Shown: piece by piece, positions 25,359-61,432 of the stretch
Position numbering within the stretch: the first letter of the stretch is position 1
Layout: each line of letters begins with the position of its first letter
IMG/VR virus record: IMGVR_UViG_3300043570_002836
Coordinates: 1-64,000 of that record
DNA: 64,000 bases
Direction: 5' to 3' (one strand)
Origin: a virus
Notes under the pieces: model-generated
The model's database searches: none
Seen by the model: the letters and a program-made list of their open reading frames with translations, nothing else
What the model was told of the DNA's origin: nothing
Made by a program: the position numbers and the translations under genes

Positions 25359-27194
25359 TTATCTCAATTCTTTTAAATCAAATGTACGTACTCCGTCAAC
25401 TGTAACACGAGCGTAGAAACGGTTATTAACCATTTTCTTAGCGTAACGTGTCATAATACCTTTAATAGGTGTGAAGTTGAATGGGTTGTACATTGTTGGA
25501 GTTAATTGTAATGGTACATACGGTGCGTAGATGTAACCTGTGTCTAACAATGACGTTCCTTTGTGACCAATCAAGATTTGGTTAGCTGGGAAGTAAGGGT
25601 CACGGTAAACTTGGTAACGACCTGCTAATGTACCAACTCTTTCAATACCCATGTTGTATTGGTCTTGCTCAGGAGACGCGTTAGATACGTGGAAGTATTC
25701 TAAATCGTCAAAGATAGCTGAAACCTCAGAAGAAACAACAATCCAGTTAGCTCCACCTCTCAATGTAGATTTGTGGATTTGTGCTGACAATTGGTTGATT
25801 GCAGTAATCAAAGTTTGGTTCCAATCTTTTTGAGTGTAAGAAGTTGTTTGAGAAAGTCTTCTCCATCCGTTGTAATCCCAACGTAGATTCCAAGCCGCTC
25901 CTTTACGTAAATCACGTAAAATCTCACGGTCAATCTCAGCAGCTACTTGTTCAGATAACAATGCAGTTAACTCAGCCTCAGCGTCGATGTTATGGAAAGC
26001 CGCAACGTCTTGAGCTAACTCAGGAGACCATTGTGCTCTTAATTTTCTTTCAGTAACAGATACTGTAACAGAATCCAAGTCGAAAGAAACCTCACCGATT
26101 TTGTCTTCGAATTCTAATTCTTCGTAACGTCTGAATACCGCAGTAATCGCTTCAGCATCTAAAGTTTCAATCAATGTTCCGTTGTATCCGTCAATAGACT
26201 CAGCGTCACATGTAGGACAAACAGGACAAGATAAATCAACTTCTAAATAAATACATCCGTCAGCACTACAAACATTTTTGAATGAACCACCGTTTCCTGT
26301 ACTTGGCCATACTGTATTTACAGTGTTACCGTATTGAACGATACCTTTACCATATTGTTGAGTAACAACTCTGAACAATAATGGAATAGAATCTCCATCA
26401 GCATTTACGATAGTATCACAAGCTGAACCACCTGAAATTACTAATAATGATGGGTCAGCAACTAAACGTAAATCAGCTAAGAAAGTTTCACTATCCATTT
26501 CGTTACCGTCAGGACCGATTAATTTTCCAGCTCCATTATCTGCGAAACCACACATTTTAACAATAAGTTTTCTAACGTTTTTACCATCGTAAGTAGTACC
26601 TGTGTAATCAGTTAATCCACCATTTGCCCATACTTGAACATCTGTAGTAGCAGTAACTGCTGACCAACGACCTTTAGAATAATCGAATAAACCTGCTGGG
26701 TCTAAACCTGGCTCAGTTCCTTCGTAGAATAAATCATAAAGATTTTTCTTGTAACCACCTGTTGCATCAGTATAACCATCATTTTGATTTGTTGGTCCAT
26801 TAGGTGCTCCGATTGGTGCGTAGTGGTCACCTGATTGATTAGCAGTACCACCGTCATATCCTTGGATTTTTGGTACGAAGAAGAACAATTTACCGATTGG
26901 TAAGTTCATTGCTTGTACAGAAACGATATCATTCGCTAATAATTTAGAGAATACACGTCTAACGATTGGGAAAACAACAGTTTCAAAAGAACCTGATGAC
27001 CCTTCAGAAGTCGCTTCATTGATTAAGTGAGATGCTTGGTTCTCATATAATTGAGCCACGTTCTCTTTAAGATGTCCTTTAAGACCATCTAGGAATCCTA
27101 ATCTATCCCATTTGTTAATTGTATCTTCTTTGATAACTTTAAGGTGTTTTAACCCGATGTTACCTACAAGACCTGATTCTAATAATGCTCCCAT
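25359..27194 (-). CDS. Major capsid protein, gp23-like
   Basis: 611 residues. A typical gp23 start region is followed by a likely prohead-protease site: residues 55-61 read SHLINE-A, cleavage expected after E60. After that come FETVVFPIVRRVFSKLLAND and VSVQAMNLPIGKLFFFVPKI, the N-arm/P-domain pattern of T4-type capsid proteins. The C-terminal half has VQLTPTMYNPFNFTPIKGIM-like strands and ends RVTVDGVRTFDLKELR. An insertion near residues 305-330 holds five cysteines (C309, C314, C323, C326, C329), unusual for gp23. It follows the scaffold gene, as in T4. Confidence 0.93.
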   Translation of the reverse strand: MGALLESGLVGNIGLKHLKVIKEDTINKWDRLGFLDGLKGHLKENVAQLYENQASHLINEATSEGSSGSFETVVFPIVRRVFSKLLANDIVSVQAMNLPIGKLFFFVPKIQGYDGGTANQSGDHYAPIGAPNGPTNQNDGYTDATGGYKKNLYDLFYEGTEPGLDPAGLFDYSKGRWSAVTATTDVQVWANGGLTDYTGTTYDGKNVRKLIVKMCGFADNGAGKLIGPDGNEMDSETFLADLRLVADPSLLVISGGSACDTIVNADGDSIPLLFRVVTQQYGKGIVQYGNTVNTVWPSTGNGGSFKNVCSADGCIYLEVDLSCPVCPTCDAESIDGYNGTLIETLDAEAITAVFRRYEELEFEDKIGEVSFDLDSVTVSVTERKLRAQWSPELAQDVAAFHNIDAEAELTALLSEQVAAEIDREILRDLRKGAAWNLRWDYNGWRRLSQTTSYTQKDWNQTLITAINQLSAQIHKSTLRGGANWIVVSSEVSAIFDDLEYFHVSNASPEQDQYNMGIERVGTLAGRYQVYRDPYFPANQILIGHKGTSLLDTGYIYAPYVPLQLTPTMYNPFNFTPIKGIMTRYAKKMVNNRFYARVTVDGVRTFDLKELR

Positions 27195-30151: not shown

Positions 30152-30880
30152 TTAATTTCCTAAATAATCGGATAATCTTTTCATTAAGTCAAGTGATTTA
30201 TTACCGTTGTCTGAAACTTCAGTATTAGACCTCATTTTCTTTTCTTCCTCAAGATTCTCATCGTACTTAAATTTATCTTCAGGATTATTGAAAAGATAAG
30301 CACCTGGTGTAGATGGTGATGATACCAAGTCAAAACAAATTAATTCAAAATCGTCTTGTACTTCATTTTTTTCACCAACCTTTTTAAGTGAACCAACACC
30401 TCTTGATGAAATACCTAACGTAACGCCTTGTCTAAGGTAGTTTGCTGCCATATCACCTTTAGTTGATACAATCCCTCTCTCGTGGAAACCTGGACTTGTT
30501 AGAAGTTGTAATTTACCAATAAGGACATTACCTTCCCACCATATTTCGGTAATCATGTGAGATACACGGTCCAAATCTATCAAAGAAGATTCGGGGTGGT
30601 TTAATTCAGATAAAGACACCCCTTTTTCTATCAATTTTTTATAATTTTCGGCTTCACGTTCTAAAATACGTTTAGGATAGATTCTACCATTTCTATTTGG
30701 TGTGTCATACTTCTGTAGTACGGCATAAAATTCGAATGGTTTAGAATAGTCTAAAAAACCTTTAGACTCCTGTATCACACTTAAATTATGTTTGTCTTTT
30801 GGGGATATATATCCTGCATCATATTCTATAAGAATTCCCTTTTTACCGATATCGGTTGGGCTTAATATTTTTAAATCCAT
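30152..30880 (-). CDS. Prohead maturation protease, gp21-like
   Basis: 242 residues. T4-type prohead protease (serine peptidase). VSLSELNHPESSLIDLDRVS holds the likely catalytic histidine (H95). LGISSRGVGSLKKV holds the likely catalytic serine (S148 or S149). A downstream ELICFDLVSSPSTPGAYLF is typical for the family. Substrates should be scaffold, capsid and leader-bearing proteins at (I/L)xE sites, several of which can be seen here. It lies between the portal side and the scaffold/capsid genes, as in T4. Confidence 0.9.
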   Translation of the reverse strand: MDLKILSPTDIGKKGILIEYDAGYISPKDKHNLSVIQESKGFLDYSKPFEFYAVLQKYDTPNRNGRIYPKRILEREAENYKKLIEKGVSLSELNHPESSLIDLDRVSHMITEIWWEGNVLIGKLQLLTSPGFHERGIVSTKGDMAANYLRQGVTLGISSRGVGSLKKVGEKNEVQDDFELICFDLVSSPSTPGAYLFNNPEDKFKYDENLEEEKKMRSNTEVSDNGNKSLDLMKRLSDYLGN

Positions 30881-30903: not shown

Positions 30904-31371
30904 TTAAACACTTTCGGTTTGGTACTCTTCTTCTAGTTTTTTACTTTTAGTTAGTGTGAAATTAAAATAATCGTTATTATTAAAATTCTCATCGTAGATT
31001 CTTGTTACGATATTTTTTAGATTTTCTTTTATCTCTTTTGATTTAAAATCAAGTTCTTCTTCGTTTAAGAAAAAATTGATTTCTAAGTTCATAAATGATT
31101 TTTTACCTAATGTTAAACCACTTGACCGTAAGTCTAAATCCACAATAAAACTGTCATCAAATAACACTTTGTCTAATGTTTCATAAACGGAATGTTTAAC
31201 GGCTCGGCTTAAATTTAAAACGACTCTTGTCCAATTCTCAGGTTCATTTATTGGTTCGACCCATGTTTGTAAATTTAAGTACAATGATTTGAAATTAATT
31301 GAGTCTACAGTACCATATACAATTTTAGATGTGTTGAATCCCTGTATTTTTGAGGTTTTCCCCTTTTTCAT
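30904..31371 (-). CDS. Hypothetical protein of the head gene block
   Basis: 155 residues, basic start (KKGKTSKIQGFNTSKIVYG), then beta-strand rich: VDSINFKSLYLNLQTWVEPI, WTRVVLNLSRAVKHSV, FIVDLDLRSSGLTLGK. It lies between a + strand bS21 gene and the prohead protease. Similar small proteins occur near gp20/gp21 genes of T4-like phages, but I do not recognise a named family. Confidence 0.6.
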   Translation of the reverse strand: MKKGKTSKIQGFNTSKIVYGTVDSINFKSLYLNLQTWVEPINEPENWTRVVLNLSRAVKHSVYETLDKVLFDDSFIVDLDLRSSGLTLGKKSFMNLEINFFLNEEELDFKSKEIKENLKNIVTRIYDENFNNNDYFNFTLTKSKKLEEEYQTESV

Positions 31372-31412
31372 TATTTTTCATATTATAATCGTTTATTTTT
31401 TTAAAATATAAG

Positions 31413-31420
31413 TATATTTA
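31413..31420 (+). promoter_or_regulatory. Probable promoter of the bS21 gene
   Basis: TATATTTA, a near match to TAnnTTTG, 25 bases before the ATG at 31446. It is the only + strand signal in this part, fitting independent (probably early) expression of bS21. The -33 TTG is not clear. Confidence 0.4.
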
Positions 31421-31445
31421 CCTTTATAGTCAAAAAAGTAAAAAT

Positions 31446-31640
31446 ATGCTAATAGTTAAAGTTGATAAGAACTCAAATATTGAGAAAGCCCTAAAAGAAT
31501 ATAAGGGAAAAATAATCAGAACAAGACAGAGTTCTAAATTAAACGAAAGAAAAGAATTTATAAAAACTTCCGTAAAAAAAAGAAACGTACTCAACAAAGC
31601 TAAGTACGTTCAAAAAAATTATAAAGATAAATCTAATTAA
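31446..31640 (+). CDS. rpsU: Small ribosomal subunit protein bS21, phage-encoded
   Basis: 64 residues. MLIVKVDKNSNIEKALKEYK, then a K-I-I-R-T-R core, LNERKEFIKTSVKKRN, and a C-terminal LNKAKYVQKNYKD. This matches bS21 of Bacteroidota in length and in the conserved I-x-x-A-L-K-x-(F/Y)-K, R-x-x-F-x-K-x-S-V-x-R-R and A-x-Y-V-Q-K positions. bS21 sits on the 30S platform next to the anti-Shine-Dalgarno end of 16S rRNA. Phage versions could replace the host protein and change which mRNAs are started. It is the single + strand gene inside the - strand head block, with a tail-to-tail 4-base overlap with 31637. Confidence 0.88.
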   Translation: MLIVKVDKNSNIEKALKEYKGKIIRTRQSSKLNERKEFIKTSVKKRNVLNKAKYVQKNYKDKSN

Positions 31641-32353
31641 AGATTCTCGTTCAATCCTTTTAGTTTGAAATAAGTTAATTTATCGTATTTCTCAGATTCG
31701 ATTTTACTAATCGTTTCATTAATTTGTTTACCTGTTTCGTAATCAGTGTTATCTCTTTTTAAAGAAGTTAATTTAGATATTACTGATGATTTTAACGGCT
31801 CGAAATTTTCAATTAACGTTTTATCATCTTGTGATAAAAGACTAAACAATTCTTTTTTATCTGATTCATTTAAATTATCCAAATAATCAGTAATTGTTCT
31901 GTTAGCAATTGAAACCATTGAACTAATTGGAATTTTAGCAAATTCTTTTTGAACTGTTGGTTTTTTCTTTAACGATTCAGATATTAGCTTTTTACTGTTA
32001 ATTCTTGACTCAATGGTTAATATATTATCCGAAAACAAATCATCAATGTGTTGGTATTGGTTTGTCGTTTTAATATTACCAACCCAATTTTTTAAAGTTG
32101 TTAAATCGTTTAAACTAACCTTACCAACTACTTTGTGGTAATTAGAAATAGACTCATTAATATATGTCTCAACGATTGATTCATTGATACCTTTATTAGA
32201 TGTTAAATCATCATACAAGTAATATAATTTACTAATATTTTTATTTTCCAAAACATATTTCTTAAAGTTAGATAACTCTTGTTTAAATGTTTTTTTACTA
32301 TATGACTCAGACAATAATGTCTCTATTTTTGATTTTAATATTCCGAATTTCAT
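31637..32353 (-). CDS. Possible prohead core / internal head protein
   Basis: 238 residues, lysine, serine and leucine rich and predicted helical. It occupies the place of T4 genes 67/68 (core proteins) between portal and protease. The N-terminus (KFGILKSKIETLLSESYSKK) ends in L-S-E, and further (L/I)-x-E sites recur (LISES, INESI, LNESD, LNENL), which fits a protein digested by the prohead protease. A late-type motif lies 13 bases upstream. Role inferred from position and sites. Confidence 0.55.
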   Translation of the reverse strand: MKFGILKSKIETLLSESYSKKTFKQELSNFKKYVLENKNISKLYYLYDDLTSNKGINESIVETYINESISNYHKVVGKVSLNDLTTLKNWVGNIKTTNQYQHIDDLFSDNILTIESRINSKKLISESLKKKPTVQKEFAKIPISSMVSIANRTITDYLDNLNESDKKELFSLLSQDDKTLIENFEPLKSSVISKLTSLKRDNTDYETGKQINETISKIESEKYDKLTYFKLKGLNENL

Positions 32354-32366
32354 AATTTGTTTTCTA

Positions 32367-32374
32367 TATAAATA
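32367..32374 (-). promoter_or_regulatory. Putative late promoter TATTTATA
   Basis: Minus-strand GATATTTATATAG 13 bases upstream of the ATG at 32353, overlapping the 3' end region of the portal gene. Confidence 0.5.
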
Positions 32375-34210
32375 TCAACGATTTAGAAGTTTATCTAATT
32401 GGGTTTCAATATCACCCAAAGAATTTCTTGCCTTAGATAAATCAATAAAAGAGTCATCCTCAGTTAGACTATCACTTTCTAATAATATTTTTAAATTATC
32501 TTTTTTATCAATTGATTCAGGTGTTAGACCCGCGTCACCACCTGGTACAGGACCTGGAGGTGCTGGAGGACCTTCCATTCCACCACCCATGTCGGGAGCT
32601 CCCATATCACCGCCTGGCGCTGGCGGAGGAGTTGTTGTGGCATTTTGAGTACCACCTGATTTAGTTGCGTACAATTTGTCGATATTATCAAATAAACCTG
32701 TATGAGTGATAATTGTTGCCGTATTAACTAATTCAGCACCGACTGCTCTTTCAATTCTTTGTTGTTGTAAATCAAGTTTAATTTCATCATCTGAGAAACC
32801 TAAAATATGTTTTTTAGCCCATGACGCTGAAACAGGTGCGATACCTTCTTGTGCTGGCATTACCGCATCTTTGTATAATAACATTTTTTCTTTCCAAATG
32901 TCAATTTTTAATAAATCGGCTTGTGAAGAAGGATTAGTTAAACTTAATGTAAAGTTAGATAATTCATCCTCAAATCCTAATAAAAATAAATGGATAATCG
33001 CGATTTTATTCATCTCAGCAATCATACATTTCTGTATTTTATTAATAGTTCTTGCAAAACGAATATCCATTAATGATAAGTCTTTACCACCACCGACAGG
33101 TTCCTCAAATCCTAAGAATGCTTTTGGTACACGTAATGCCGTTAATAATTTCTTTTGGATGTATTCGATATCGGCAATCTCACCTAAGTTCTGAGCGCCT
33201 GGTAATGTTTCGATTGGGGATGCTTGTGCGGGGTCACGTACAGGAATAAAATAATCTTGGTCAACCGCCATTTGGTTAAACCTCATATCAACATTACCTG
33301 TTGCTGAGTCAACAACTTGACTTCTTTTGAATTTGTTAGCAACACGTTGTACGTATGGTTCAACATCTTTATCATCCATGTTACCAACGAATACTTTAAA
33401 TACACGTCTTTCAGGTGCTCTTGATGTACGATAAATCAACATCGCATCCTCAGATAACAATAACTGTTTCCAAATACGTCTTGCTTTTTCTAACATTGAA
33501 GTACCATAAGGAAGTTTTCTATCATCCCCCAATAAACGGAAGTGAGCGATTTCCCATGTGTTAAATTCCATGTCTTTAACTTTCCATTTGAATCTTAAAC
33601 CTTTGTTTTCAATTGGTTCATCAACATTTGCTGATTTGGCAGCCATACCTCTTTCCAAACGTTCAATCTCGATGTTTGGTAATTGCATACAACCAATAAT
33701 ACCTTTTTCAGTATCTAACTTTAAGTAAACAAAGTTATCCCCATACTTACATGTGTTTCTTGTCCACATAGGTAAGTTGGTATTGATATCTAAAGCGTTA
33801 TTAAATAAATCGGTTAGAATTGATTTAATACGTTTAGATTCTGAGTATATTTGTAACATGTAACCATTTTGGTCAACTGTTGTAGATTCCTCACCGTAGA
33901 TGTCTAATGCTGCAGAAATCTCAGGAGTGTACTCCATTGATTCGTAATCATAAAATGACGCCAAACGTGTTGGTTCATAATAAACGGCTTGTGTGTATAG
34001 ATTACTTTCAATTTTAGACCATTGGTTAGCTAAAAAATAAGTTTGTTGTGCTTGTAATTTTTCCCTATCATAATCGTCCTTTGAAGTTGTTTTTAACAAC
34101 TCTTTTTTGTCAAATTTATATGTGGGATAATCTTGATTTAATAATGAGTTTGGACCAAACGCGTGTGATAAACGTTGCCAAACTGTCAGATTATTTTGTT
34201 TATTTTCCAT
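32375..34210 (-). CDS. Portal vertex protein, gp20-like
   Basis: 611 residues. T4-type portal: an N-terminal LNQDYPTYKFDKKELLKTTS, ASFYDYESMEYTPEISAALD (very characteristic), DNFVYLKLDTEKGIIGCMQL, GTSMLEKARRIWKQLLLSED, YRTSRAPERRVFKVFVGNMD and KAFLGFEEPVGGGKDLSLMD. The C-terminal 100 residues are a proline/glycine-rich stretch (PPPAPGGDMGAPDMGGGMEG) and an acidic helix. Twelve copies would form the DNA entry channel. It follows the terminase gene as in T4. Confidence 0.93.
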   Translation of the reverse strand: MENKQNNLTVWQRLSHAFGPNSLLNQDYPTYKFDKKELLKTTSKDDYDREKLQAQQTYFLANQWSKIESNLYTQAVYYEPTRLASFYDYESMEYTPEISAALDIYGEESTTVDQNGYMLQIYSESKRIKSILTDLFNNALDINTNLPMWTRNTCKYGDNFVYLKLDTEKGIIGCMQLPNIEIERLERGMAAKSANVDEPIENKGLRFKWKVKDMEFNTWEIAHFRLLGDDRKLPYGTSMLEKARRIWKQLLLSEDAMLIYRTSRAPERRVFKVFVGNMDDKDVEPYVQRVANKFKRSQVVDSATGNVDMRFNQMAVDQDYFIPVRDPAQASPIETLPGAQNLGEIADIEYIQKKLLTALRVPKAFLGFEEPVGGGKDLSLMDIRFARTINKIQKCMIAEMNKIAIIHLFLLGFEDELSNFTLSLTNPSSQADLLKIDIWKEKMLLYKDAVMPAQEGIAPVSASWAKKHILGFSDDEIKLDLQQQRIERAVGAELVNTATIITHTGLFDNIDKLYATKSGGTQNATTTPPPAPGGDMGAPDMGGGMEGPPAPPGPVPGGDAGLTPESIDKKDNLKILLESDSLTEDDSFIDLSKARNSLGDIETQLDKLLNR

Positions 34211-34267: not shown

Positions 34268-36034
34268 TTATCTACGACCAAATAACCACCCATAAGTTTC
34301 ATAATCATTTCGACTTGGGTTATATCCATTCGATTGTCTCATTCTATCTTGATAATGTGGTATAACGGGATTAAAATCTAAGGTTTTACTAGCTTCCTCA
34401 TTATCACTAACAGTCCAAGATTCTAACATTGATTTTGTTAATTCGGTTACTTTTGTTAAATTACTGAAAGATGATTCGCCAACATAAGTAGCCATTGCGA
34501 TAGACATAAGTAAATCGTCATGTCGTCCTTTTTGGTGGTCAGGTCTACCATTAATGTAAATGAACGTATCCATTTCATTGTACAAACGATGACTATATAT
34601 TTTAAAATCGTGTCTCATCGCCTCTTCATATGATGCGATAATCTGAACACGTTTATTATTAAAGTTAATTCCTGGTATCTTCTCTGCAGATTTTGGATTA
34701 TATTTCCAAGTGTTACCTAATTCAACACCATCAACATATAAATCTTTATATCCTAATTCCTGTAATTTACGTGATGTGGATACTCCCATACCACCCGTGA
34801 TATCTATTACGATATAGGCTGAATACATATTGGCCCATTTATAACATATTTCAGCCATAGTGTCAGGAGGTAATTTACCGACAAATTCTGCAACTTGTTC
34901 ACGAGTATCAAAATCGACTAATTGAAATGAACTAAAATCCTCACTATCCCCACGACTGACATCGACACCCATAATGTATTTATGGCCAATAACAGGGTCC
35001 TTCCAAATCCATAATTGATTACCCAACATTTTATTTTGAGGTTCAACCAAATAATTCTCACGGATTTTTTGCATTAATCTTGAGTCAAATACGTTATCCC
35101 CTGAACTAAGGAAGTTACACTCTAACTCTTGAGAAACTTTACGTTTGTCGTATTTAAGTTTTTTAACCATTCTTTCAAACCAATCAGAACATGGTTTGTG
35201 CCCATCCTTAATTAATTCTTTAGCAACCTCAAAATCTCTCTCTAAAAATGGTTTGTCAGCCCAACTAATAATTTTGGTTGGGTCATATTCTTCTTTATTT
35301 AAAAGATAATGAATAGCATCATCAGTTTTAACAAAATATAAGTCGCTAGTATAACGAGGGTCACGATACCAATACATTTCCGTAATTTTGAAATCATTCA
35401 TATTACGTAACGCTTGGTCATAAATCTCATAGTAAATTGGGTCATTACCGTTAGGTGTTGATACCACAATTACTTTACCCCCTGTAGATAGGGACGCCAT
35501 ACAGGCAGACCAAAAGTCACTGTCGGCTTCGATAAACGCTGCCTCATCAAATACAAGTATTGTTGGAGTAAATCCACGTAAAGCATCCTTAGATGTTGCA
35601 ACCGCTTTAACCTCACAACTATTTGTTAATTTCCAATGTTTGGTAGATTTTTTATTTGGGTCAATTCCGACATTAGTCCATGACGGCCATTGAGTTACAA
35701 ACAACCTAATCTTATTCGCCATCTCGATTGATGTATCAAGTTTGTTGGCAATAATAAGAATTTTCTCAGGTTTTTCTTTTTTAGCAAAAGCTAATTTTTT
35801 TGATATCCAAGCGGCGGTAACTGTTGATACGCCCGCTTGTCGATATTTTAAGGCAATGTTCTCATTATAATCTTCATAATCCTGTAACAATTTGATTTGG
35901 TCAGGGAATAATTCTAGTGGAACAAATTTTGATACTGTGTTATCGTATGTTTGTAGATACGTTCTTAAAGCGTATGAGGTGTCCCTCATACACTTTACGT
36001 ATTCTAGTAATATTTGTTCTTTAGTTAATGACAT
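34268..36034 (-). CDS. Terminase large subunit, gp17-like
   Basis: 588 residues. ATPase half: adenine region FPDQIKLLQDYEDYNENIAL, Walker A variant RQAGVST at 65-71, Walker B ILVFDEAAF (D163, E164), motif III VVSTPNG. Nuclease half: IMGVDVSRGDSEDFSSFQLV with the first catalytic aspartate, YIVIDITGGMG, and a late KGRHDDLLMSIAMA aspartate pair. It pumps DNA through the portal. Starts 3 bases after the preceding gene, and a late-type variant AATAAATA (read on +) lies near the portal start. Confidence 0.95.
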   Translation of the reverse strand: MSLTKEQILLEYVKCMRDTSYALRTYLQTYDNTVSKFVPLELFPDQIKLLQDYEDYNENIALKYRQAGVSTVTAAWISKKLAFAKKEKPEKILIIANKLDTSIEMANKIRLFVTQWPSWTNVGIDPNKKSTKHWKLTNSCEVKAVATSKDALRGFTPTILVFDEAAFIEADSDFWSACMASLSTGGKVIVVSTPNGNDPIYYEIYDQALRNMNDFKITEMYWYRDPRYTSDLYFVKTDDAIHYLLNKEEYDPTKIISWADKPFLERDFEVAKELIKDGHKPCSDWFERMVKKLKYDKRKVSQELECNFLSSGDNVFDSRLMQKIRENYLVEPQNKMLGNQLWIWKDPVIGHKYIMGVDVSRGDSEDFSSFQLVDFDTREQVAEFVGKLPPDTMAEICYKWANMYSAYIVIDITGGMGVSTSRKLQELGYKDLYVDGVELGNTWKYNPKSAEKIPGINFNNKRVQIIASYEEAMRHDFKIYSHRLYNEMDTFIYINGRPDHQKGRHDDLLMSIAMATYVGESSFSNLTKVTELTKSMLESWTVSDNEEASKTLDFNPVIPHYQDRMRQSNGYNPSRNDYETYGWLFGRR

Positions 36035-56443: not shown

Positions 56444-56453
56444 ATTTTATTTG

Positions 56454-56526
56454 AGCGGGTGGAGGTAATCGAAACCTCGTCCTTAGATTGGAAGTCTAAT
56501 ATAATAAGCCACTATACGACACCCGC
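56454..56526 (-). tRNA. tRNA-Gly(TCC)
   Basis: Acceptor GCGGGTG/CACCCGC, anticodon arm TTAGA-CTTCCAA-TCTAA, discriminator U as in bacterial tRNA-Gly. CCA not encoded. Confidence 0.92.
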
Positions 56527-56612
56527 AAATTTGGGTAGAATCAGACGCGTTCTGTCTACCGAGACCTCATCGTTAATGAATTACTTCATCAGAGCGTACT
56601 GAGACACTATTG

Positions 56613-56692
56613 TGAACCTGGAGGGAGTCGAACCCTCAACCATATGGACTTCGGCTTAAACGAAGCGTGTTTACCAATTTCACCACAGGTCC
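56613..56692 (-). tRNA. tRNA-Leu(TAA)
   Basis: Acceptor GGACCTG/CAGGTTC, anticodon arm CTTCG-TTTAAGC-CGAAG, extended variable arm, T-arm GAGGG-TTCGACT-CCCTC. Confidence 0.9.
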
Positions 56693-56698
56693 ATTTTG

Positions 56699-56771
56699 TA
56701 GTCCTATCAGGATTCGAACCTGAATCAAAGAGGTAGAAGCTCTTTATGTTAATCCCTTACACCATAGAACC
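56699..56771 (-). tRNA. tRNA-Arg(TCT)
   Basis: Acceptor GGTTCTA/TAGGACT, anticodon arm AAGAG-CTTCTAC-CTCTT, T-arm TCAGG-TTCGAAT-CCTGA. Serves AGA, a common codon in this AT-rich genome. Confidence 0.92.
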
Positions 56772-56780
56772 AAATTGTTG

Positions 56781-56852
56781 AGGGCTGGGGGAATTTCGAA
56801 ATCCCGACCTTTCGATTAACAGTCGAAGGCTCTTCCTCTGAGCTACCAACCC
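56781..56852 (-). tRNA. tRNA-Asn(GTT)
   Basis: Acceptor GGGTTGG/CCAGCCC, D-arm TAGCTCAGAGGAAGAGC, anticodon arm TTCGA-CTGTTAA-TCGAA. Confidence 0.9.
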
Positions 56853-56866
56853 TTATATTTGTTTTG

Positions 56867-56939
56867 AGGTCTCTAACGGATTCGAACCGTTATCCCTGGG
56901 TTACAAAGCCAGAATAATAAGCCATTATACTAAGAGACC
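56867..56939 (-). tRNA. tRNA-Thr(TGT)
   Basis: Acceptor GGTCTCT/AGAGACC, anticodon arm CTGGC-TTTGTAA-CCCAG (one C-C mismatch next to the loop), T-arm AACGG-TTCGAAT-CCGTT. Confidence 0.88.
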
Positions 56940-57158
56940 AATTTGTGATTACTCCTTGGGTGTTTCATCACATTTACGTGAATGGAGTGGCCAAACTCAC
57001 TAACAACACGGACATTAGTTTTTAACAAAATAACTATCGTCAAAAATCGTCAGTTTTTATCAACCAAAACTGAATAAACGGACTGTCGTATTTGTTAACA
57101 CTATTTAAGTGCGTGTTACCTACGTTCACAATCAGAACCCTACTTGTTTACACTCCCG
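56940..57158 (-). other. Gene-free spacer between tRNA-Asp and tRNA-Thr
   Basis: No ORF or tRNA fits. Pairings seen: CAGTTTT ... AAAACTG (7 bp, around 57052-57073), GTGAT ... ATCAC near 56945-56970, and AACAC ... GTGTT near 57099-57117. Possibly a small RNA or processed leader of tRNA-Thr; unsupported beyond that. Confidence 0.35.
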
Positions 57159-57230
57159 CGGTCTATGAGAGAATCGAACTCTCAGCACATCCGTGACAGG
57201 GATGTATGTTAACCATTACACTAATAGACC
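57159..57230 (-). tRNA. tRNA-Asp(GTC)
   Basis: Acceptor GGTCTAT/ATAGACC, discriminator G, anticodon arm CATCC-CTGTCAC-GGATG, T-arm GAGAG-TTCGATT-CTCTC. Confidence 0.93.
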
Positions 57231-57236
57231 TTTAGT

Positions 57237-57305
57237 AGCGGATTCAGGACTCGAACCTGGCCTCGGGGTTATGAGCCCCACGTGCTACCATTTACACTAA
57301 ACCGC
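57237..57305 (-). tRNA. tRNA-Met(CAT), initiator-like anticodon stem
   Basis: Acceptor GCGGTTT/AATCCGC (one T-T mismatch), anticodon arm TGGGG-CTCATAA-CCCCG. The three G-C pairs next to the loop are typical of initiator tRNA, but the first acceptor pair is G-C, whereas initiators are mismatched there. Confidence 0.85.
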
Positions 57306-57312
57306 GATGTGT

Positions 57313-57382
57313 ATTCCCACGGAGAATCGAACTCCGATTTTATGGATGAAAACCATAGGTCCTAACCGTTAGACGATGGGAA
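57313..57382 (-). tRNA. tRNA-Glu(TTC)
   Basis: Acceptor TTCCCAT/GTGGGAA, D-arm GTCTAACGGTTAGGAC, anticodon arm TATGG-TTTTCAT-CCATA, T-arm CGGAG-TTCGATT-CTCCG. Confidence 0.9.
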
Positions 57383-57397
57383 CGTTTAATTGTCTTA

Positions 57398-57428
57398 CAA
57401 ATCTAAGTATTTACTTTTGATTATACAA
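57398..57428 (-). promoter_or_regulatory. Host-type promoter within the tRNA array
   Basis: Minus strand: TTG (57428-57426), 20 bases, TAGATTTG (57405-57398), then TAAGACAA. It lies 16 bases upstream of tRNA-Glu. Confidence 0.75.
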
Positions 57429-57450
57429 GACCTTTTTAATTTTTTTTCTG

Positions 57451-57524
57451 TGGTCCAGATAGGATTCGAACCTATGACCTTCGCTTTATGAGAGCGCCGC
57501 TCTAACCACCTGAGCTACAGAACC
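57451..57524 (-). tRNA. tRNA-Met or tRNA-Ile2 (CAT)
   Basis: Acceptor GGTTCTG/CTGGACC (one mismatch), D-arm TAGCTCAGGTGGTTAGAGC, anticodon arm CGCT-CTCATAA-AGCG, T-arm ATAGG-TTCGAAT-CCTAT. Elongator-like; lysidine modification to read AUA cannot be judged. Confidence 0.85.
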
Positions 57525-57529
57525 TTATG

Positions 57530-57602
57530 TACCCCCAACAGGATTCGAACCTGTAAAAAATAGTTCCTAAAACTATCGTGTCTACCTTTCCACCATAGGG
57601 GC
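57530..57602 (-). tRNA. tRNA-Leu(TAG) with short variable loop
   Basis: Acceptor GCCCCTA/TGGGGGT, anticodon arm ATAGT-TTTAGGA-ACTAT, T-arm ACAGG-TTCGAAT-CCTGT. Only about five T residues lie between anticodon arm and T-arm, although bacterial tRNA-Leu has a long variable arm. Confidence 0.8.
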
Positions 57603-57652
57603 GTTTACTTCTATTCCAATACGTCAATGAACTCTTGTTCTGTTTTGTCTGA

Positions 57653-57683
57653 CAAATCTAATACTTTTATTTTGATTTGCCAA
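57653..57683 (-). promoter_or_regulatory. Host-type promoter of the downstream tRNA run
   Basis: Minus strand: TTTG with TTG at 57683-57681, 20 bases, TAGATTTG (57660-57653), then TCAGACA. It reads into tRNA-Leu(TAG) and the tRNAs beyond. Confidence 0.75.
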
Positions 57684-57693
57684 ACTTAGGTCA

Positions 57694-57728
57694 TAAAAAA
57701 AACCCCTCTCTTTTGGAGAAGGGTTTCA
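57694..57728 (-). terminator. Terminator
   Basis: Minus strand AAACCCTTCTC - CAAAA - GAGAGGGGTTTTTTTT, downstream of the methyltransferase gene and just before the next tRNA promoter. The stretch 57729-57892 between it and the gene has no supported feature. Confidence 0.85.
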
Positions 57729-57892
57729 TTTAAATTTTATCTTAATGAATTAACACACCTACTCCGATACACAAGGATTGTCCCCCTCCGTTCTCGCATT
57801 TAAAAGTATGTTATTCAAATTTTGCATTACTATGTCGTTTTTTATTAAATATATTGTACTTCTTGAAAAGTTCAATAGTTTATGAAAAAAAA

Positions 57893-58450
57893 TTATTTTT
57901 TTATGAATACGTATATAGTATTTGTACCATAATTAGTTGATGAGGTAAACCCATCTTTAAAATATTCTTTATTTGTCCAAGATTCTTTGAATGATTTTCT
58001 AGAGATAACTAAACAATCTGTAGGTATCATATTATAAATTTCGGCATCAATATTATTGGGGAATAACGTATTATCCATGTAGATTACTGTGGCATCAGAA
58101 ATATCACAATTTAAAATATTGTCATTAATAAATGAAATATTATCATTTTTGATATTATGAGTTTCCATTAACTTTAATGATGTTTCGTATCGTTCACGAC
58201 TATACTCAATACCACAAGATTTTTTGGGGTTATATTCCACCCCAATATGGATTACTATTTTCCCAATACCTGAACCTAAGTCATAAAATACCGTATCATC
58301 ATTAAAATGTGTTTTGTATTTGTTAACTATTTCGTTAATTGAATCGTAACCTGTTTCTCCATAACCTTCTGACCCGACAATATTAACATCAAATTCTGTT
58401 TTATTGTGGATGTTATATGAATTAAAATTATATAATGTTTCTATCGACAT
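57893..58450 (-). CDS. SAM-dependent methyltransferase, DOT1/class I type
   Basis: Start at ATG 58450 (MSIETLYNFNSYNIHNKTEF); longer frames run into tRNA-Tyr. 185 residues. Motif I is VFYDLGSGIGKIVIHIGVEY, preceded by GYGETGYDSINEIVNKY, then CGIEYSRERYETSLKL (acidic residue binding the ribose), and motif IV DATVIYMDNTLFP with D-N. The E-T-x-x-x-S-I-x-x-I and D-L-G-S-G-x-G pattern resembles DOT1-like and ribosomal-protein methyltransferases. Target unknown. It lies 14 bases behind tRNA-Tyr, so both may be cut from one transcript. Confidence 0.8.
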   Translation of the reverse strand: MSIETLYNFNSYNIHNKTEFDVNIVGSEGYGETGYDSINEIVNKYKTHFNDDTVFYDLGSGIGKIVIHIGVEYNPKKSCGIEYSRERYETSLKLMETHNIKNDNISFINDNILNCDISDATVIYMDNTLFPNNIDAEIYNMIPTDCLVISRKSFKESWTNKEYFKDGFTSSTNYGTNTIYVFIKK

Positions 58451-58464
58451 ATTGGTAAATTTTG

Positions 58465-58545
58465 TGGGAGTGGAGGGATTCGAACCCCCACGCAATAAAG
58501 ACCTGATTTACAGTCAGGCGAGCCAGCCAGTTGCTCAACACTCCC
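58465..58545 (-). tRNA. tRNA-Tyr(GTA), copy 1
   Basis: Acceptor GGGAGTG/CACTCCC, anticodon arm CCTGA-CTGTAAA-TCAGG, long variable arm, T-arm GGGGG-TTCGAAT-CCCTC. Differs from copy 2 (59156) at one base in the D region. Confidence 0.93.
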
Positions 58546-58584
58546 AAGTTAGGAAAGAGGAAGATGGTTTGTACGTCTTTTATT

Positions 58585-59079
58585 TTAGACCTCCAAATTT
58601 TTATTAAATAAGACATCACCTTCTTTCATATATTCTTTTTTCACTTTTTCAATCAAGGATTTCAAAGCGGAGTTACCTTGTGTTGTTTTTTTAAGGTCTT
58701 CAAGTTTAGGACTACCTTTAAAACTAATCTTAGTATAAGACGTTCCGTTTTCTTTACCCCATACAATGTTAGTTAAACACAACTTGTCAATTTTCTTTTG
58801 CTCCTTTTCTTTTTCTTTCTCGAATAGAATATCATCAATAACTGAATCAAGTGTTCGTGAATAACCAAACTCTTTTGGTAAAGTTTTACAGAAGTTATAA
58901 ACCTCATCTAAAACTTTAGACATACCTTCATTTAAAGGTTGGATATTTGTATTACCACCGTGTCCGTCATTTTGAGCGTATGCCGTTTTTTTACCGTTTA
59001 TAAAAACATCAGCCATGAAACAAGTAGTTTCTTCGCTAAACATTTTGTTAATCTTTACATTTTTAAGTTCTATTTTCAT
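58585..59079 (-). CDS. Hypothetical protein within the tRNA array
   Basis: 164 residues: KIELKNVKINKMFSEETTCF, MADVFINGKKTAYAQNDGHG, then NTNIQPL and a charged helix (LFEKEKEKEQKKIDKLCLTN). An alpha/beta fold of the type found alone in many phages; no named family recognised. It has a strong host-type promoter (59100-59130) and lies between the two tRNA-Tyr copies. Confidence 0.65.
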   Translation of the reverse strand: MKIELKNVKINKMFSEETTCFMADVFINGKKTAYAQNDGHGGNTNIQPLNEGMSKVLDEVYNFCKTLPKEFGYSRTLDSVIDDILFEKEKEKEQKKIDKLCLTNIVWGKENGTSYTKISFKGSPKLEDLKKTTQGNSALKSLIEKVKKEYMKEGDVLFNKNLEV

Positions 59080-59099
59080 ATTGTTTTTTTTTTGTCTTA

Positions 59100-59130
59100 C
59101 AAATCTACAATTTTAATTTAGTTCTCACAA
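59100..59130 (-). promoter_or_regulatory. Host-type promoter
   Basis: Minus strand: TTG (59130-59128), 20 bases, TAGATTTG (59107-59100), then TAAGACAAA. Drives the gene starting at 59079 and probably tRNA-Tyr copy 1. Confidence 0.75.
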
Positions 59131-59155
59131 TAGTTTTTTTATTTTTTTTTTTAAG

Positions 59156-59236
59156 TGGGAGTGGAGGGATTCGAACCCCCACGCAATAAAGACCTGATTT
59201 ACAGTCAGGCGAGCCAGCCAATTGCTCAACACTCCC
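59156..59236 (-). tRNA. tRNA-Tyr(GTA), copy 2
   Basis: Same structure as copy 1 (GGGAGTG/CACTCCC, GTA loop CTGTAAA, long variable arm), with one base difference. Confidence 0.93.
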
Positions 59237-59241
59237 AAAAC

Positions 59242-59305
59242 ATATCGTAGATTGTCCTTCACAATTTAACGGCGGGTTTGAACTTAATCAACTCTCCTAC
59301 GATAT
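59242..59305 (-). ncRNA. Predicted small three-way-junction RNA in tRNA spacer
   Basis: ATATCGTAG (59242-59250) pairs perfectly with CTACGATAT (59297-59305). Inside are ATTGT-CCTTC-ACAAT (59251-59265) and TTGA-ACTTAA-TCAA. No ORF. It could be a processing element or a small RNA. Confidence 0.45.
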
Positions 59306-59308
59306 TTG

Positions 59309-59380
59309 CACACCACCAAGGACTCGAACCCTGACCAAATGGGTTGGAACCATTTATGCTAGCCATTACACCAATGATGC
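59309..59380 (-). tRNA. tRNA-Trp(CCA)
   Basis: Acceptor GCATCAT/GTGGTGT, discriminator G, anticodon arm AATGG-TTCCAAC-CCATT, T-arm CAGGG-TTCGAGT-CCTTG. Confidence 0.9.
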
Positions 59381-59404
59381 GAATAATGAAACTTTGTTTC
59401 ATTG

Positions 59405-59478
59405 AGGACAGAGAGAGGTTCGAACTCTCGAATAATGGATTTGCAGTCCACCCCCTTAGACCACTCAGGCATCTGTCC
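59405..59478 (-). tRNA. tRNA-Cys(GCA)
   Basis: Acceptor GGACAGA/TCTGTCC, anticodon arm TGGA-CTGCAAA-TCCA, T-arm GAGAG-TTCGAAC-CTCTC, discriminator U as usual for tRNA-Cys. Its 5' end overlaps the stop of the gene upstream by 14 bases. Confidence 0.92.
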
Positions 59479-59872
59479 TTGAATTTACCATTTTAACTAA
59501 GACATCAACTAATATTACATTGTCGATACCCTCAATTAAGATTGGATTTTTTGTTTTCCCGTTTTCGATTAAATTACCTACTCCCATGTAAAACTTACAA
59601 TCAGTACTAATATTTGTTTTGTACATAATTGCGTTATACGCTTTTTGTTTTAATCTATCACTTCTAAATGTTGTTGTCAAATCTATGAAGATATCAACCC
59701 CGTCAATTGTTGTTTTAAAATCAAAATCAATAATTTGTTTTTTACCTAATGAGTTAATGAAAAATGGTTTTTCTTTATTTAACATTTTTTTTAACCCCGT
59801 TAATAATTCAAACTTGTCTTCTAATGACTTTCCATTCAGACATTTTTCTTGGTTAGTTTTACTGTGTGTCAT
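59465..59872 (-). CDS. Hypothetical protein, restriction-endonuclease-fold-like
   Basis: 135 residues. The centre, KKQIIDFDFKTTIDGVDIFI followed by D-L-T-T-T-F-R-S-D-R-L-K-Q-K-A, recalls nuclease folds of the PD-(D/E)xK group (D ... D-x-T), but the usual E-x-K is not seen, so activity is doubtful. The last 10 residues are encoded partly by the 5' part of tRNA-Cys, with the TGA stop in its D-arm, so mRNA and tRNA compete or the tRNA is cut from the message. Confidence 0.55.
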   Translation of the reverse strand: MTHSKTNQEKCLNGKSLEDKFELLTGLKKMLNKEKPFFINSLGKKQIIDFDFKTTIDGVDIFIDLTTTFRSDRLKQKAYNAIMYKTNISTDCKFYMGVGNLIENGKTKNPILIEGIDNVILVDVLVKMVNSRTDA

Positions 59873-59888
59873 AGTCGTAATGTTTTTA

Positions 59889-59990
59889 AATATTAAGTCG
59901 CGGGGAATCCATCTGCCGCTTATTACTAGAATCTTGTGGTTTACTTACTATAGTTCATACCGTTACCACTAGGAAACCCAACTTAATATT
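59889..59990 (-). ncRNA. Predicted branched RNA or decayed tRNA closed by a 10-bp stem
   Basis: AATATTAAGT (59889-59898) pairs with ACTTAATATT (59981-59990), enclosing 82 bases, a tRNA-like size. Inside, on the minus strand, GTGGT ... ACCAC and GCGG ... CCGC form two arms. A GTGGTAACGG piece recalls a D-loop, but no T-arm or anticodon arm fits a tRNA. It lies in the leader of the gene at 59872. Confidence 0.45.
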
Positions 59991-59993
59991 TTG

Positions 59994-60065
59994 TAGCCCC
60001 TGTAGGACTCGAACCTACACTATTTTGTATGTAAAACAAACACTTTTCCTTTAAGTTAAGGAGCT
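59994..60065 (-). tRNA. tRNA-Val(TAC)
   Basis: Acceptor AGCTCCT/AGGGGCT, anticodon arm TTTGT-TTTACAT-ACAAA, T-arm GTAGG-TTCGAGT-CCTAC. Starts with A rather than the usual G. Confidence 0.88.
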
Positions 60066-60073
60066 AATTATTG

Positions 60074-60148
60074 TGTCCCCGACAGGAATCGAACCTGTGA
60101 CCCTTCCATTAAAAGTGGAATGCTCTAAACCAACTGAGCTACGAGGAC
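60074..60148 (-). tRNA. tRNA-Lys(TTT)
   Basis: Acceptor GTCCTCG/CGGGGAC, D-arm TAGCTCAGTTGGTTTAGAGC, anticodon arm TTCCA-CTTTTAA-TGGAA, T-arm ACAGG-TTCGATT-CCTGT. Confidence 0.94.
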
Positions 60149-60159
60149 ATTTTTTTAAG

Positions 60160-60233
60160 TCGGAATGGTAGGGTTCGAACCTACGACCTTTCACGTATCA
60201 GGCGAATGCTCTAACCAACTGAGCTACATTCCG
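60160..60233 (-). tRNA. tRNA-Ile(GAT)
   Basis: Acceptor CGGAATG/CATTCCG, D-arm TAGCTCAGTTGGTTAGAGC, anticodon arm TTCGC-CTGATAC-GTGAA, T-arm GTAGG-TTCGAAC-CCTAC. Confidence 0.92.
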
Positions 60234-60243
60234 TTATTTTTGG

Positions 60244-60315
60244 TCGGGGTAGCAGGTGTCGAACCTGCCGCCTCTTGGTCCCAAACCAAGCGTCTCTCCC
60301 CAAGACTATACCCCG
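60244..60315 (-). tRNA. tRNA-Pro(TGG)
   Basis: Acceptor CGGGGTA/TACCCCG, anticodon arm CTTGG-TTTGGGA-CCAAG, T-arm GCAGG-TTCGACA-CCTGC. It abuts the stop of the gene at 60316. Confidence 0.92.
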
Positions 60316-60711
60316 TTATTTTGTTTTTAAGATATCCCCCAACTTCTTTACACGATTTTTGAAAGTTGTGTTGTAGAACTTTTCAAAATCTTGTTTAAGG
60401 TAGTTGAATCTGATATCACACCCATTTTTTAATTCTTTGTATGTGGAACCCCAATTCATCCCATCATTTACCATATCAATAACCAAGATTCCTACAGATA
60501 AGTTAGTAACATTCCCAACCCATATTGATATCTTCAATTCAGGGTTATATAAACCTCTACCATAAGATTCACCTCTTGGGTCAATAACAAAACCTCTTTT
60601 TTTGAACTCATCTAAAATGAAAGTTACCATTTCAGGTTTTAAACCTGATTGAATAGATTTAATCTCGTTATTTAATCCTTGAACTTTAGTTATTTTGTCT
60701 GTAGTTGTCAT
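60316..60711 (-). CDS. Hypothetical protein within the tRNA array
   Basis: 131 residues, starting MTTTDKITKVQGLNNEIKSI, with a helix to about 45, then FVIDPRGESYGRGLYNPELK and strands (ISIWVGNVTNLSVGILVIDM), ending KNRVKKLGDILKTK. Not recognised. It has a near-consensus host-type promoter (60740-60770) almost identical to that of the gene at 58585, so both are likely expressed early with the tRNAs. Confidence 0.65.
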   Translation of the reverse strand: MTTTDKITKVQGLNNEIKSIQSGLKPEMVTFILDEFKKRGFVIDPRGESYGRGLYNPELKISIWVGNVTNLSVGILVIDMVNDGMNWGSTYKELKNGCDIRFNYLKQDFEKFYNTTFKNRVKKLGDILKTK

Positions 60712-60739
60712 ATGTATGGGTTTATCGTTGTTTGTCTTA

Positions 60740-60770
60740 CAAATCTACGAAATCATTTCCATTCTCACAA
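60740..60770 (-). promoter_or_regulatory. Host-type promoter
   Basis: Minus strand: TTG (60770-60768) followed by TGAGAA, 20-base spacer, TAGATTTG (60747-60740), then TAAGACAAAC. Confidence 0.75.
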
Positions 60771-60791
60771 CACTTTTGTTATTTTTTTTTG

Positions 60792-60862
60792 TACCGAGTA
60801 TGGGTTTCGAACCCACTTGACCATCCTTATGAGAGATAGTTCTTTTCCTTTAAGCCTCGGTG
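60792..60862 (-). tRNA. tRNA-Met or tRNA-Ile2 (CAT), third CAT species
   Basis: Acceptor ACCGAGG/ACTCGGT (last pair mismatched), anticodon arm TATCT-CTCATAA-GGATG with two G-U pairs, T-arm GTGGG-TTCGAAA-CCCAT. Its D-arm is poor in G (CTTAAAGGAAAAG). Confidence 0.8.
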
Positions 60863-60869
60863 TTTCTGC

Positions 60870-60956
60870 GGAAGATGTAGGGTTCGAACCTACGCATCAT
60901 ATTTCAGACCTACTTGTTTAGCAAACAAGCCTCTTTACCGATTTGAGTAATCTTCC
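60870..60956 (-). tRNA. tRNA-Ser(GCT)
   Basis: Acceptor GGAAGAT/ATCTTCC, discriminator G, anticodon arm CTTGT-TTGCTAA-ACAAG, long variable arm, T-arm GTAGG-TTCGAAC-CCTAC. Confidence 0.92.
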
Positions 60957-60962
60957 AAATTA

Positions 60963-60980
60963 TACCGACCTAGCTCGGTA
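60963..60980 (-). other. Hairpin in tRNA spacer
   Basis: TACCGA-CCTAGC-TCGGTA, a perfect 6-bp stem between tRNA-Arg(ACG) and tRNA-Ser(GCT), without a T tract, so more likely a processing or stability element than a terminator. Confidence 0.5.
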
Positions 60981-60996
60981 TCACACATCGGATACG

Positions 60997-61068
60997 TAGT
61001 CCCCCAAGGACTCGAACCTTGACAATAACATCCGTAGTGTTAAGTGCTATCCATTACACCAAGGAACC
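60997..61068 (-). tRNA. tRNA-Arg(ACG)
   Basis: Acceptor GGTTCCT/GGGGACT, anticodon arm TAACA-CTACGGA-TGTTA, T-arm CAAGG-TTCGAGT-CCTTG. Reading CGN codons would need A-to-I editing at position 34 by a host enzyme. Confidence 0.9.
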
Positions 61069-61070
61069 AA

Positions 61071-61109
61071 ATTATTAGGTCAGGACCTAATAATCACTCA
61101 TTATTAGGT
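61071..61109 (-). repeat. Three-armed inverted/direct repeat (mutually exclusive hairpins)
   Basis: ATTATTAGGT (61071-61080), its complement ACCTAATAAT (61085-61094), and ATTATTAGGT again (61100-61109). The middle arm can pair perfectly with either outer arm (loops of 4 and 5 bases), a switch-like arrangement between tRNA-Arg(ACG) and tRNA-His. Confidence 0.8.
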
Positions 61110-61124
61110 TTTAACCTTATATTG

Positions 61125-61199
61125 GGAGTATAGTGAGATTTGAACTCACCCTATTATCACCACAAAATAACGTGCTCAACCACTGACACTATATACTCC
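61125..61199 (-). tRNA. tRNA-His(GTG)
   Basis: Extra 5' G (-1) opposite C73, acceptor GAGTATA/TATACTC, anticodon arm TTATT-TTGTGGT-GATAA, T-arm GTGAG-TTCAAAT-CTCAC. The G-1:C73 pair is the histidine identity mark. Confidence 0.9.
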
Positions 61200-61206
61200 A
61201 TAAAAA

Positions 61207-61272
61207 CCCCACTTCATCAGCTTAACGGACTGACTGCCATATCGGAGGTGGGGGTATCCTGTTAATTCAGGA
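61207..61272 (-). other. Hairpin-rich spacer between tRNA-Phe and tRNA-His
   Basis: CCCCAC (61207-61212) pairs with GTGGGG (61248-61253) around a 35-base branched loop, next to TCCTG-TTAATT-CAGGA (61257-61272). No ORF or tRNA. On the minus strand the first stem is followed by TTTTT, so it could also stop transcription. Confidence 0.45.
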
Positions 61273-61277
61273 CCTCG

Positions 61278-61350
61278 TGGGACAGGAGAGAATCGAACTC
61301 TCATTGCTTGTTCTTCAAACAAGTGCCTTGACCAACTTGGCAACTGACCC
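61278..61350 (-). tRNA. tRNA-Phe(GAA)
   Basis: Acceptor GGGTCAG/CTGTCCC, anticodon arm CTTGT-TTGAAGA-ACAAG, T-arm GAGAG-TTCGATT-CTCTC. Confidence 0.92.
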
Positions 61351-61359
61351 AATTTATTG

Positions 61360-61432
61360 TTGTCCCACAAGGGTTCGAACCTCGACTCTTCTGTACCAAA
61401 AACAGACGTGTTGCCAATTACACTATAGGACA
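61360..61432 (-). tRNA. tRNA-Gln(TTG)
   Basis: Acceptor TGTCCTA/TGGGACA (U1-A72, as usual for tRNA-Gln), anticodon arm TCTGT-TTTTGGT-ACAGA, T-arm CGAGG-TTCGAAC-CCTTG. Confidence 0.92.

Follow-up and report, generated by a model that had tools for sequence, protein, structure and literature searches.

The phage bS21 gene at 31446-31640 (+) is a known phage gene to which two features are added here: it is without the regulatory Shine-Dalgarno (SD) sequence of its host counterpart, and its coding sequence (CDS) has a dual use, since its minus strand also carries the predicted terminator of the head operon. The gene lies in a 64,000-nucleotide stretch of DNA from a lake-type Bacteroidota phage (positions 1 to 64,000 of IMG/VR virus record IMGVR_UViG_3300043570_002836), referred to as the window. 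Of all ribosomal proteins, bS21 is the one most often encoded by viruses. The Bacteroidota case provides a clean assay, as rpsU is essentially the only host message of Flavobacteriales that depends on ribosomes without bS21. An SD-led host rpsU set against an SD-less phage bS21 makes the idea that the phage retunes the ribosome a question that can be tested with reporters. The embedded terminator is a clear case of a single DNA segment bound by two constraints: one strand codes for a ribosomal protein, and the other for a putative stop of transcription.

An old Bacteroidota-type bS21 gene

The gene encodes a protein of 64 residues (MLIVKVDKNSNIEKALKEYKGKIIRTRQSSKLNERKEFIKTSVKKRNVLNKAKYVQKNYKDKSN; ATG to TAA) with Tyr at position 54. 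The protein matched PF01165 (Ribosomal_S21) with 27.7 bits (E = 2.3e-6; Pfam gathering cut-off 27) and the NCBI equivalog TIGR00030 with 17.7 bits, which is under the cut-off of 28.95; by profile score it is a member of the S21 family, beneath equivalog level. The nearest solved chain was Flavobacterium johnsoniae bS21 (7jil_z, E = 3.2e-8), followed by the Bacteroidota-type bS21 chain 9i5v. As both alignments span residues 1-57, the start codon and length are right, and the description of the protein as full length and of Bacteroidota type in the first-pass annotation was borne out. The aromatic residue at position 54, which stacks on the anti-SD, is likewise of Bacteroidota type. In an alignment-based count of 37 distinct phage proteins, 31 had Tyr and five had His at this position (36/37 Tyr or His).

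The phage protein shares its length, fold family, Tyr54, K40, S42, R46, K51 and A52 with F. johnsoniae bS21 (7JIL; PMC9976891). However, identity is 41% and residues 21-28 of the N-terminal helix are changed in the phage. The N-terminal half of phage bS21 is consistently unlike that of host bS21 at positions 21, 23, 24, 27 and 28 (R21, F23, D24, G27 and T28 changed), with the signature K-[I/V]-I-K-T-[R/K]-Q in phages and K-F-D/E-K-T-G in hosts. Judged from its sequence, phage bS21 is likely to be ribosomal.

Relatives were encoded at 80 viral loci, with identity down to 47%, and median pairwise dN/dS was approximately 0.095 (64-residue family members), showing that the open reading frame does not arise by chance. 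It is the single bS21 gene in the linear 96.5-kb virus record that includes the window. Phylogeny against host and phage versions had been proposed as a check. In a tree of 105 sequences all phage bS21s formed one group (support 99/97), beside the Bacteroidota bS21s yet separate from them, although with 64 columns many forks were unresolved. Recent acquisition from the present host is unsupported, as at this resolution the phage bS21s form one clade apart from hosts; the same separate clustering was found by Chen et al. 2022 (PMC9723584). bS21 is an old, maintained phage gene. One paralog from a Muricauda contig (L096, long branch, weak placement) fell inside the phage group. This SD-less, phage-like bS21 (L096:3001-3195) is on an apparently chromosomal contig of Muricauda sp. 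CP2A, where it is flanked by regulator-like ORFs and a sigma-70-like gene, and is possibly a phage-derived host paralog.

Position and promoter in the head block

bS21 is the sole plus-strand gene within a T4-like head block and is flanked on either side by minus-strand genes; the earlier description of a lone plus-strand gene was exact in coordinates and strand. On the convergent side are bS21_CN of Chen et al. (31637-32353, -), the portal protein (32375-34210, -; phrog_213) and the terminase large subunit (34268-36034, -; phrog_2). bS21_CN is a 238-residue protein with no named relative; its all-helical model (pLDDT 85, pTM 0.54) had no named match in PDB or viral structures. The stop codons of bS21 and bS21_CN overlap, in TTAA at 31637-31640. 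On the divergent side are a gene for a 155-residue protein without a Pfam or PHROG match (30904-31371, -), the prohead protease (30152-30880, -; phrog_207) and the major capsid protein of the Gp23 family (25359-27194, -; PF07068, 249 bits). In 65 of the 80 viral loci bS21 has these neighbours around it and invariably lies on the strand opposite to theirs; the remaining 15 loci belong to different phages.

This arrangement, with bS21 on the opposite strand between two hypothetical genes inside the TerL-portal-protease-MCP block, is that of clades a-e of Chen et al. 2022 (PMC9723584), who described it in 47 lake phages with predicted Bacteroidetes hosts. The core finding of a phage bS21 in the head block, and the general idea of retuning, are therefore already known. 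Also shared with those clades are a Bacteroidota-type bS21, an aromatic residue 54 and many tRNA genes. Their complete genomes are 293-331 kb, whereas the window record is a linear 96.5-kb fragment likened to them by gene order and bS21.

There are 23 tRNA genes in the window (56453-61432), covering nearly all amino acids, with two CAT anticodons and two tRNA-Tyr; tRNA-Ala was not found among them. By inspection only, a 623-residue phage ORF (L163:1306-3177; record approximately 80.8-82.7 kb) reads as full-length DnaK, and further on is an FKBP-like isomerase ORF (L163:10772-11197).

bS21 has a putative promoter of its own, consisting of a conserved upstream element, GTTTATT (31391-31397, +), and a conserved host-like -7 box, TATATTTA (31413-31420, +). 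The combination GTTTATT-N-TATATTT[A/G] occurred ahead of bS21 in 24 of 29 distinct upstream regions and in 0 shuffles. The host promoter consensus is TTTG/TAnnTTTG (PMC6847099). A strict host sigma promoter was rejected: TAnnTTTG was present in 3/29, not above shuffled sequence, and only the looser TATATTT[A/G] is conserved. Of the host-type promoter suggested previously, the conserved element stands and the strict consensus does not; the putative box is host-like, but without the final G in most relatives.

The first-pass annotation also considered that the promoter sets bS21 apart from the genes around it. A late box, ATATTTAT, was enriched about 20-fold upstream of window genes (14 hits against 0.7 expected); it precedes the genes for the protease, the convergent neighbour (box at 32368-32375, -) and the portal, but is absent upstream of bS21. 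The promoter does not distinguish bS21 from every neighbour, however: the divergent gene shares the same 74-nt region, where TTGAC[T/A]-N17-TAnnTT is found on the other strand in 21/29 loci (0.02 in shuffles); in the window this is TTGACT-N17-TATATT (31405-31433, -), a putative promoter for the 30904-31371 gene that overlaps the bS21 promoter region. bS21 would occupy, on the plus strand, the space that separates two minus-strand transcription units, its promoter region overlapping the promoter of the next unit. The late box lies approximately 20-27 nt before many start codons (genes 24334, 30152, 31637, 44867, 46569, 50727 and others). Its core, TATTTATA, is the reverse complement of TATAAATA, which we take to be the T4 late motif.

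A conserved, predicted antisense terminator within the bS21 coding sequence

An antisense stem-loop of 13 bp with a 3-nt loop lies within the bS21 CDS (31583-31611, -), 26 nt past the stop codon of the convergent gene; a U tract, CUUUUUUUU on the RNA (31574-31582, -), comes immediately after it. No other terminator-like structure was seen around bS21, and on the plus strand none that could serve bS21 was found nearby in the window. The minus-strand RNA folds at -14.6 kcal/mol (z = -5.0) and the plus strand at -7.1 kcal/mol. The features expected of an intrinsic terminator, namely a GC-containing stem-loop, a U tract directly after it and a position just past a stop codon, are all present, and termination here is predicted from them. 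All other strong terminator-like hairpins of the window are intergenic and, with one exception, are 8-23 nt after a same-strand stop, so that the bS21 hairpin is the only strong one inside a gene.

In 23 distinct CDS of the family the minus strand forms all 13 pairs. With random synonymous codons, given each protein and phage codon usage, the probability of this was about 1e-4 or less for most CDS and about 2e-3 in the Met48/His54 type (L011/L012), although, as the site was chosen after being seen, weight rests on conservation and compensatory changes and not on the null probability alone. In 15 distinct rows 195/195 cells pair, with two pairs changed on both sides, compared with 31-46% for slid controls. 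Non-Watson-Crick cells number 34, and every one of them is a G-U pair when read on the minus strand but a mismatch when read on the plus strand, identifying the minus-strand RNA as the molecule under selection. Rare codons are used in the stem, for example CTC (1% of Leu codons).

When codons 48 and 54 were left free in a scan of IMG/VR, 11 site variants were obtained, in which only the combinations GTA/TAC, GTG/CAC, ATG/CAT and GCA/TAC occurred, ATG/CAT in two backgrounds. GTA and GCA at codon 48 thus go with Tyr at residue 54, whereas GTG and ATG go with His. Across these aligned variants, Tyr54/His54 variation is coupled to the hairpin through compensatory changes at codons 48 and 54. Chen et al. 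2022 (PMC9723584) noted Tyr, His and Phe at position 54 and read the Tyr/His variation as a conservative change at the contact with the anti-SD (ASD).

In four more distant relatives with the same gene order (L070, L072, L076 and L079), a minus-strand hairpin (-14 to -17 kcal/mol) and its T tract are found where bS21 ends or shortly past it, in the space separating bS21 from the convergent gene. Where this space is closed and the stops overlap, the terminator is inside bS21. It is not universal, since the syntenic loci L029, L044, L047-L057 and L059 have neither an embedded nor a nearby strong terminator. With a stem that covaries across the family, the last third of the bS21 CDS probably doubles as the terminator of the terminase-portal-bS21_CN unit. 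Terminators at or inside the end of a convergent gene are known from overlapping or bidirectional terminators and noncontiguous operons (PMC1852404, PMC7154746); here the stem falls entirely within the CDS of a ribosomal protein, and it covaries with the identity of a functional residue. Compared with F. johnsoniae rpsU, the embedded antisense hairpin is a feature of the phage family. Both it and the covariation of codons 48 and 54 are new, being absent from Chen et al. 2022.

That the hairpin works instead in bS21 mRNA, or is a by-product of protein sequence, is very improbable. The stem is wholly within coding sequence, there is a weaker plus-strand hairpin (-7.1 kcal/mol) and the U tract also provides Lys-Lys-Arg codons. 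Against this, the 34 non-Watson-Crick cells are G-U only on the minus strand, codons as rare as CTC are used (synonymous null about 1e-4), the 26-nt distance from a same-strand stop resembles that of other terminators, and relatives have the same function outside the CDS. Read-through of the head transcript could also give antisense repression of bS21, with bS21 and head genes reciprocally regulated as in a noncontiguous operon or excludon (PMC7154746). The opposite-strand gene in a conserved block, the overlapping stops and the overlapping divergent promoters all suit such a scheme, but the two minus-strand units are delimited by a separate promoter and by a terminator that is strong and conserved, and Chen et al. 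found bS21 and its neighbour at similar levels, making it improbable. With an antisense terminator as the preferred reading, the convergent transcript would be expected to extend over about one third of bS21. This bears on the statement, made without strand information, that bS21 'may be transcribed together' with its neighbour (Chen et al. 2022, PMC9723584). Strandless RNA-seq coverage of phage bS21 may partly derive from the neighbouring head transcript.

Phage bS21 leaders are without the SD of host rpsU

For each gene, the 22 nt ahead of the start were paired with AUCACCUCCUUUCU, which we take to be the Flavobacterium 16S tail. Among host rpsU leaders 49/80 paired at -12 kcal/mol or stronger (median -17.6), including all nine from named Flavobacterium, and the SD in rpsU of Flavobacteriaceae is 9-13 bp. 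None of 35 distinct phage bS21 leaders reached -7 kcal/mol (median +0.6). The window bS21 leader paired at -1.0 kcal/mol, far from the -13 kcal/mol or stronger of an extended SD (McNutt et al. 2023); the F. johnsoniae rpsU leader, in contrast, has the SD of 9-13 bp.

The missing SD may simply be the default of this phage and need not be a special adaptation, since other genes in the window are also without one: 2/62 window leaders had an SD at -7 kcal/mol or stronger, compared with 7/62 in a mock window, in agreement with the earlier observation that genes of this phage lack SD sites. Phage leaders are A-rich, as are host leaders. Even if it is a default, the absence of an SD removes the feedback that controls the host copy. 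In many Flavobacteriales, according to the available text of McNutt et al. (PMC9976891), host rpsU has an extended SD and is autoregulated, being preferentially translated by bS21-less ribosomes, in which the anti-SD is free. That text discusses phage bS21 in general terms and does not report phage leaders, and the contrast is not treated in Chen et al. 2022 (PMC9723584). The SD-less leader of phage bS21, as against the SD-controlled host version, is thus new.

Approximately 31 of the 80 host rpsU leaders are without an extended SD, mainly those of Bacteroidales and some marine Flavobacteriia. If the phage host belongs to such a lineage, there is no autoregulation to escape. Loci without an extended SD include L087-L091, L098, L108, L110, L112, L119, L130 and L147, some of which are close relatives of SD-bearing ones, and this suggests that autoregulation of rpsU was lost in some host lineages.

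Possible role of bS21 in infected cells

The first-pass annotation proposed that a phage bS21, by helping to hide the anti-SD, could retune host ribosomes toward phage messages. This does not follow. Host messages are also SD-less (PMC6847099; PMC9976891), phage and host leaders are alike A-rich and the phage protein keeps Tyr54, the residue that stacks on the anti-SD; hiding the anti-SD cannot therefore favour phage messages in general, and was rejected as the sole discriminator between phage and host. ASD locking puts at a disadvantage only those messages that depend on a free anti-SD, and in Flavobacteriales this means essentially rpsU.

The best explanation as a whole, which we regard as probable, is that late in infection phage bS21 occupies the place of bS21 on the 30S subunits of the host. 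The analogy is with bS21 of Pelagibacter phage HTVC008M, which is also phage-encoded and under purifying selection and for which entry into E. coli ribosomes has been demonstrated (Mizuno et al. 2019, PMC6375957), although its host is of a different phylum. As it needs no free anti-SD, phage bS21 would be translated by ordinary bS21-replete ribosomes and so would escape the autoregulation of the host, where bS21 is made by bS21-less ribosomes only. As phage bS21 accumulated, ribosomes would stay replete and the anti-SD locked, which would sustain initiation on SD-less messages, phage and host alike, and at the same time repress host rpsU. Ribosomes would then drift from host to phage bS21. The most economical mechanism would thus be replacement of host bS21 by an SD-independent copy that represses host rpsU. 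Any further preference for phage messages would need the divergent N-terminal half (R21, F23, D24, G27 and T28 changed) and not ASD hiding. The joint reading is put forward tentatively and at well short of even confidence: a copy outside the SD-dependent feedback shuts off host rpsU and so yields phage-bS21 ribosomes, while its CDS is constrained by the terminator and residue 54 switches between Tyr and His with the hairpin.

Phage bS21 might do nothing beyond maintenance: once host synthesis is shut down, it would simply be the spare part with which 30S subunits stay complete, showing no message bias and no targeting of rpsU. The chance of this is close to even. Tyr54 and the C-terminal contacts are kept, the gene is under purifying selection, and ribosomes with C-terminally truncated bS21 have lower activity on SD-less mRNA (PMC9976891); the 23 tRNA genes and the downstream ORFs resembling DnaK and FKBP on inspection also fit general support of translation. 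A pure spare part, however, has no need of an N-terminal half that differs consistently at positions 21, 23, 24, 27 and 28. That difference is central to the selective takeover envisaged by Chen et al. 2022, in which the divergent N-terminal helix recruits phage over host messages, and it carries the consistent signature K-[I/V]-I-K-T-[R/K]-Q (host K-F-D/E-K-T-G). Lake metatranscriptomes, in which bS21 was highly transcribed and was expressed late together with structural genes, point the same way (PMC9723584). But window leaders are SD-less and A-rich, like those of F. johnsoniae (PMC6847099), with no phage-specific mRNA feature found in them, and the published RNA mapping is without strand while about a third of the bS21 CDS is predicted to lie under the convergent transcript. 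Selective takeover seems rather unlikely.

In a different phage lineage bS21 is on the strand of its neighbours (L060:5763-6014, L062:5753-6004, L074:5766-6014, L075:5744-6004 and L080:93-362). There it is directly preceded by a small protein with the C-terminus [F/Y]E..E[E/D]Y.KC..L, a motif common to further small proteins of these loci, none of which had a Pfam or PHROG family above cut-off. The end of the small-protein gene usually overlaps the bS21 start by 4-14 nt, and in several of these loci a DnaJ-like gene is ahead of the pair.
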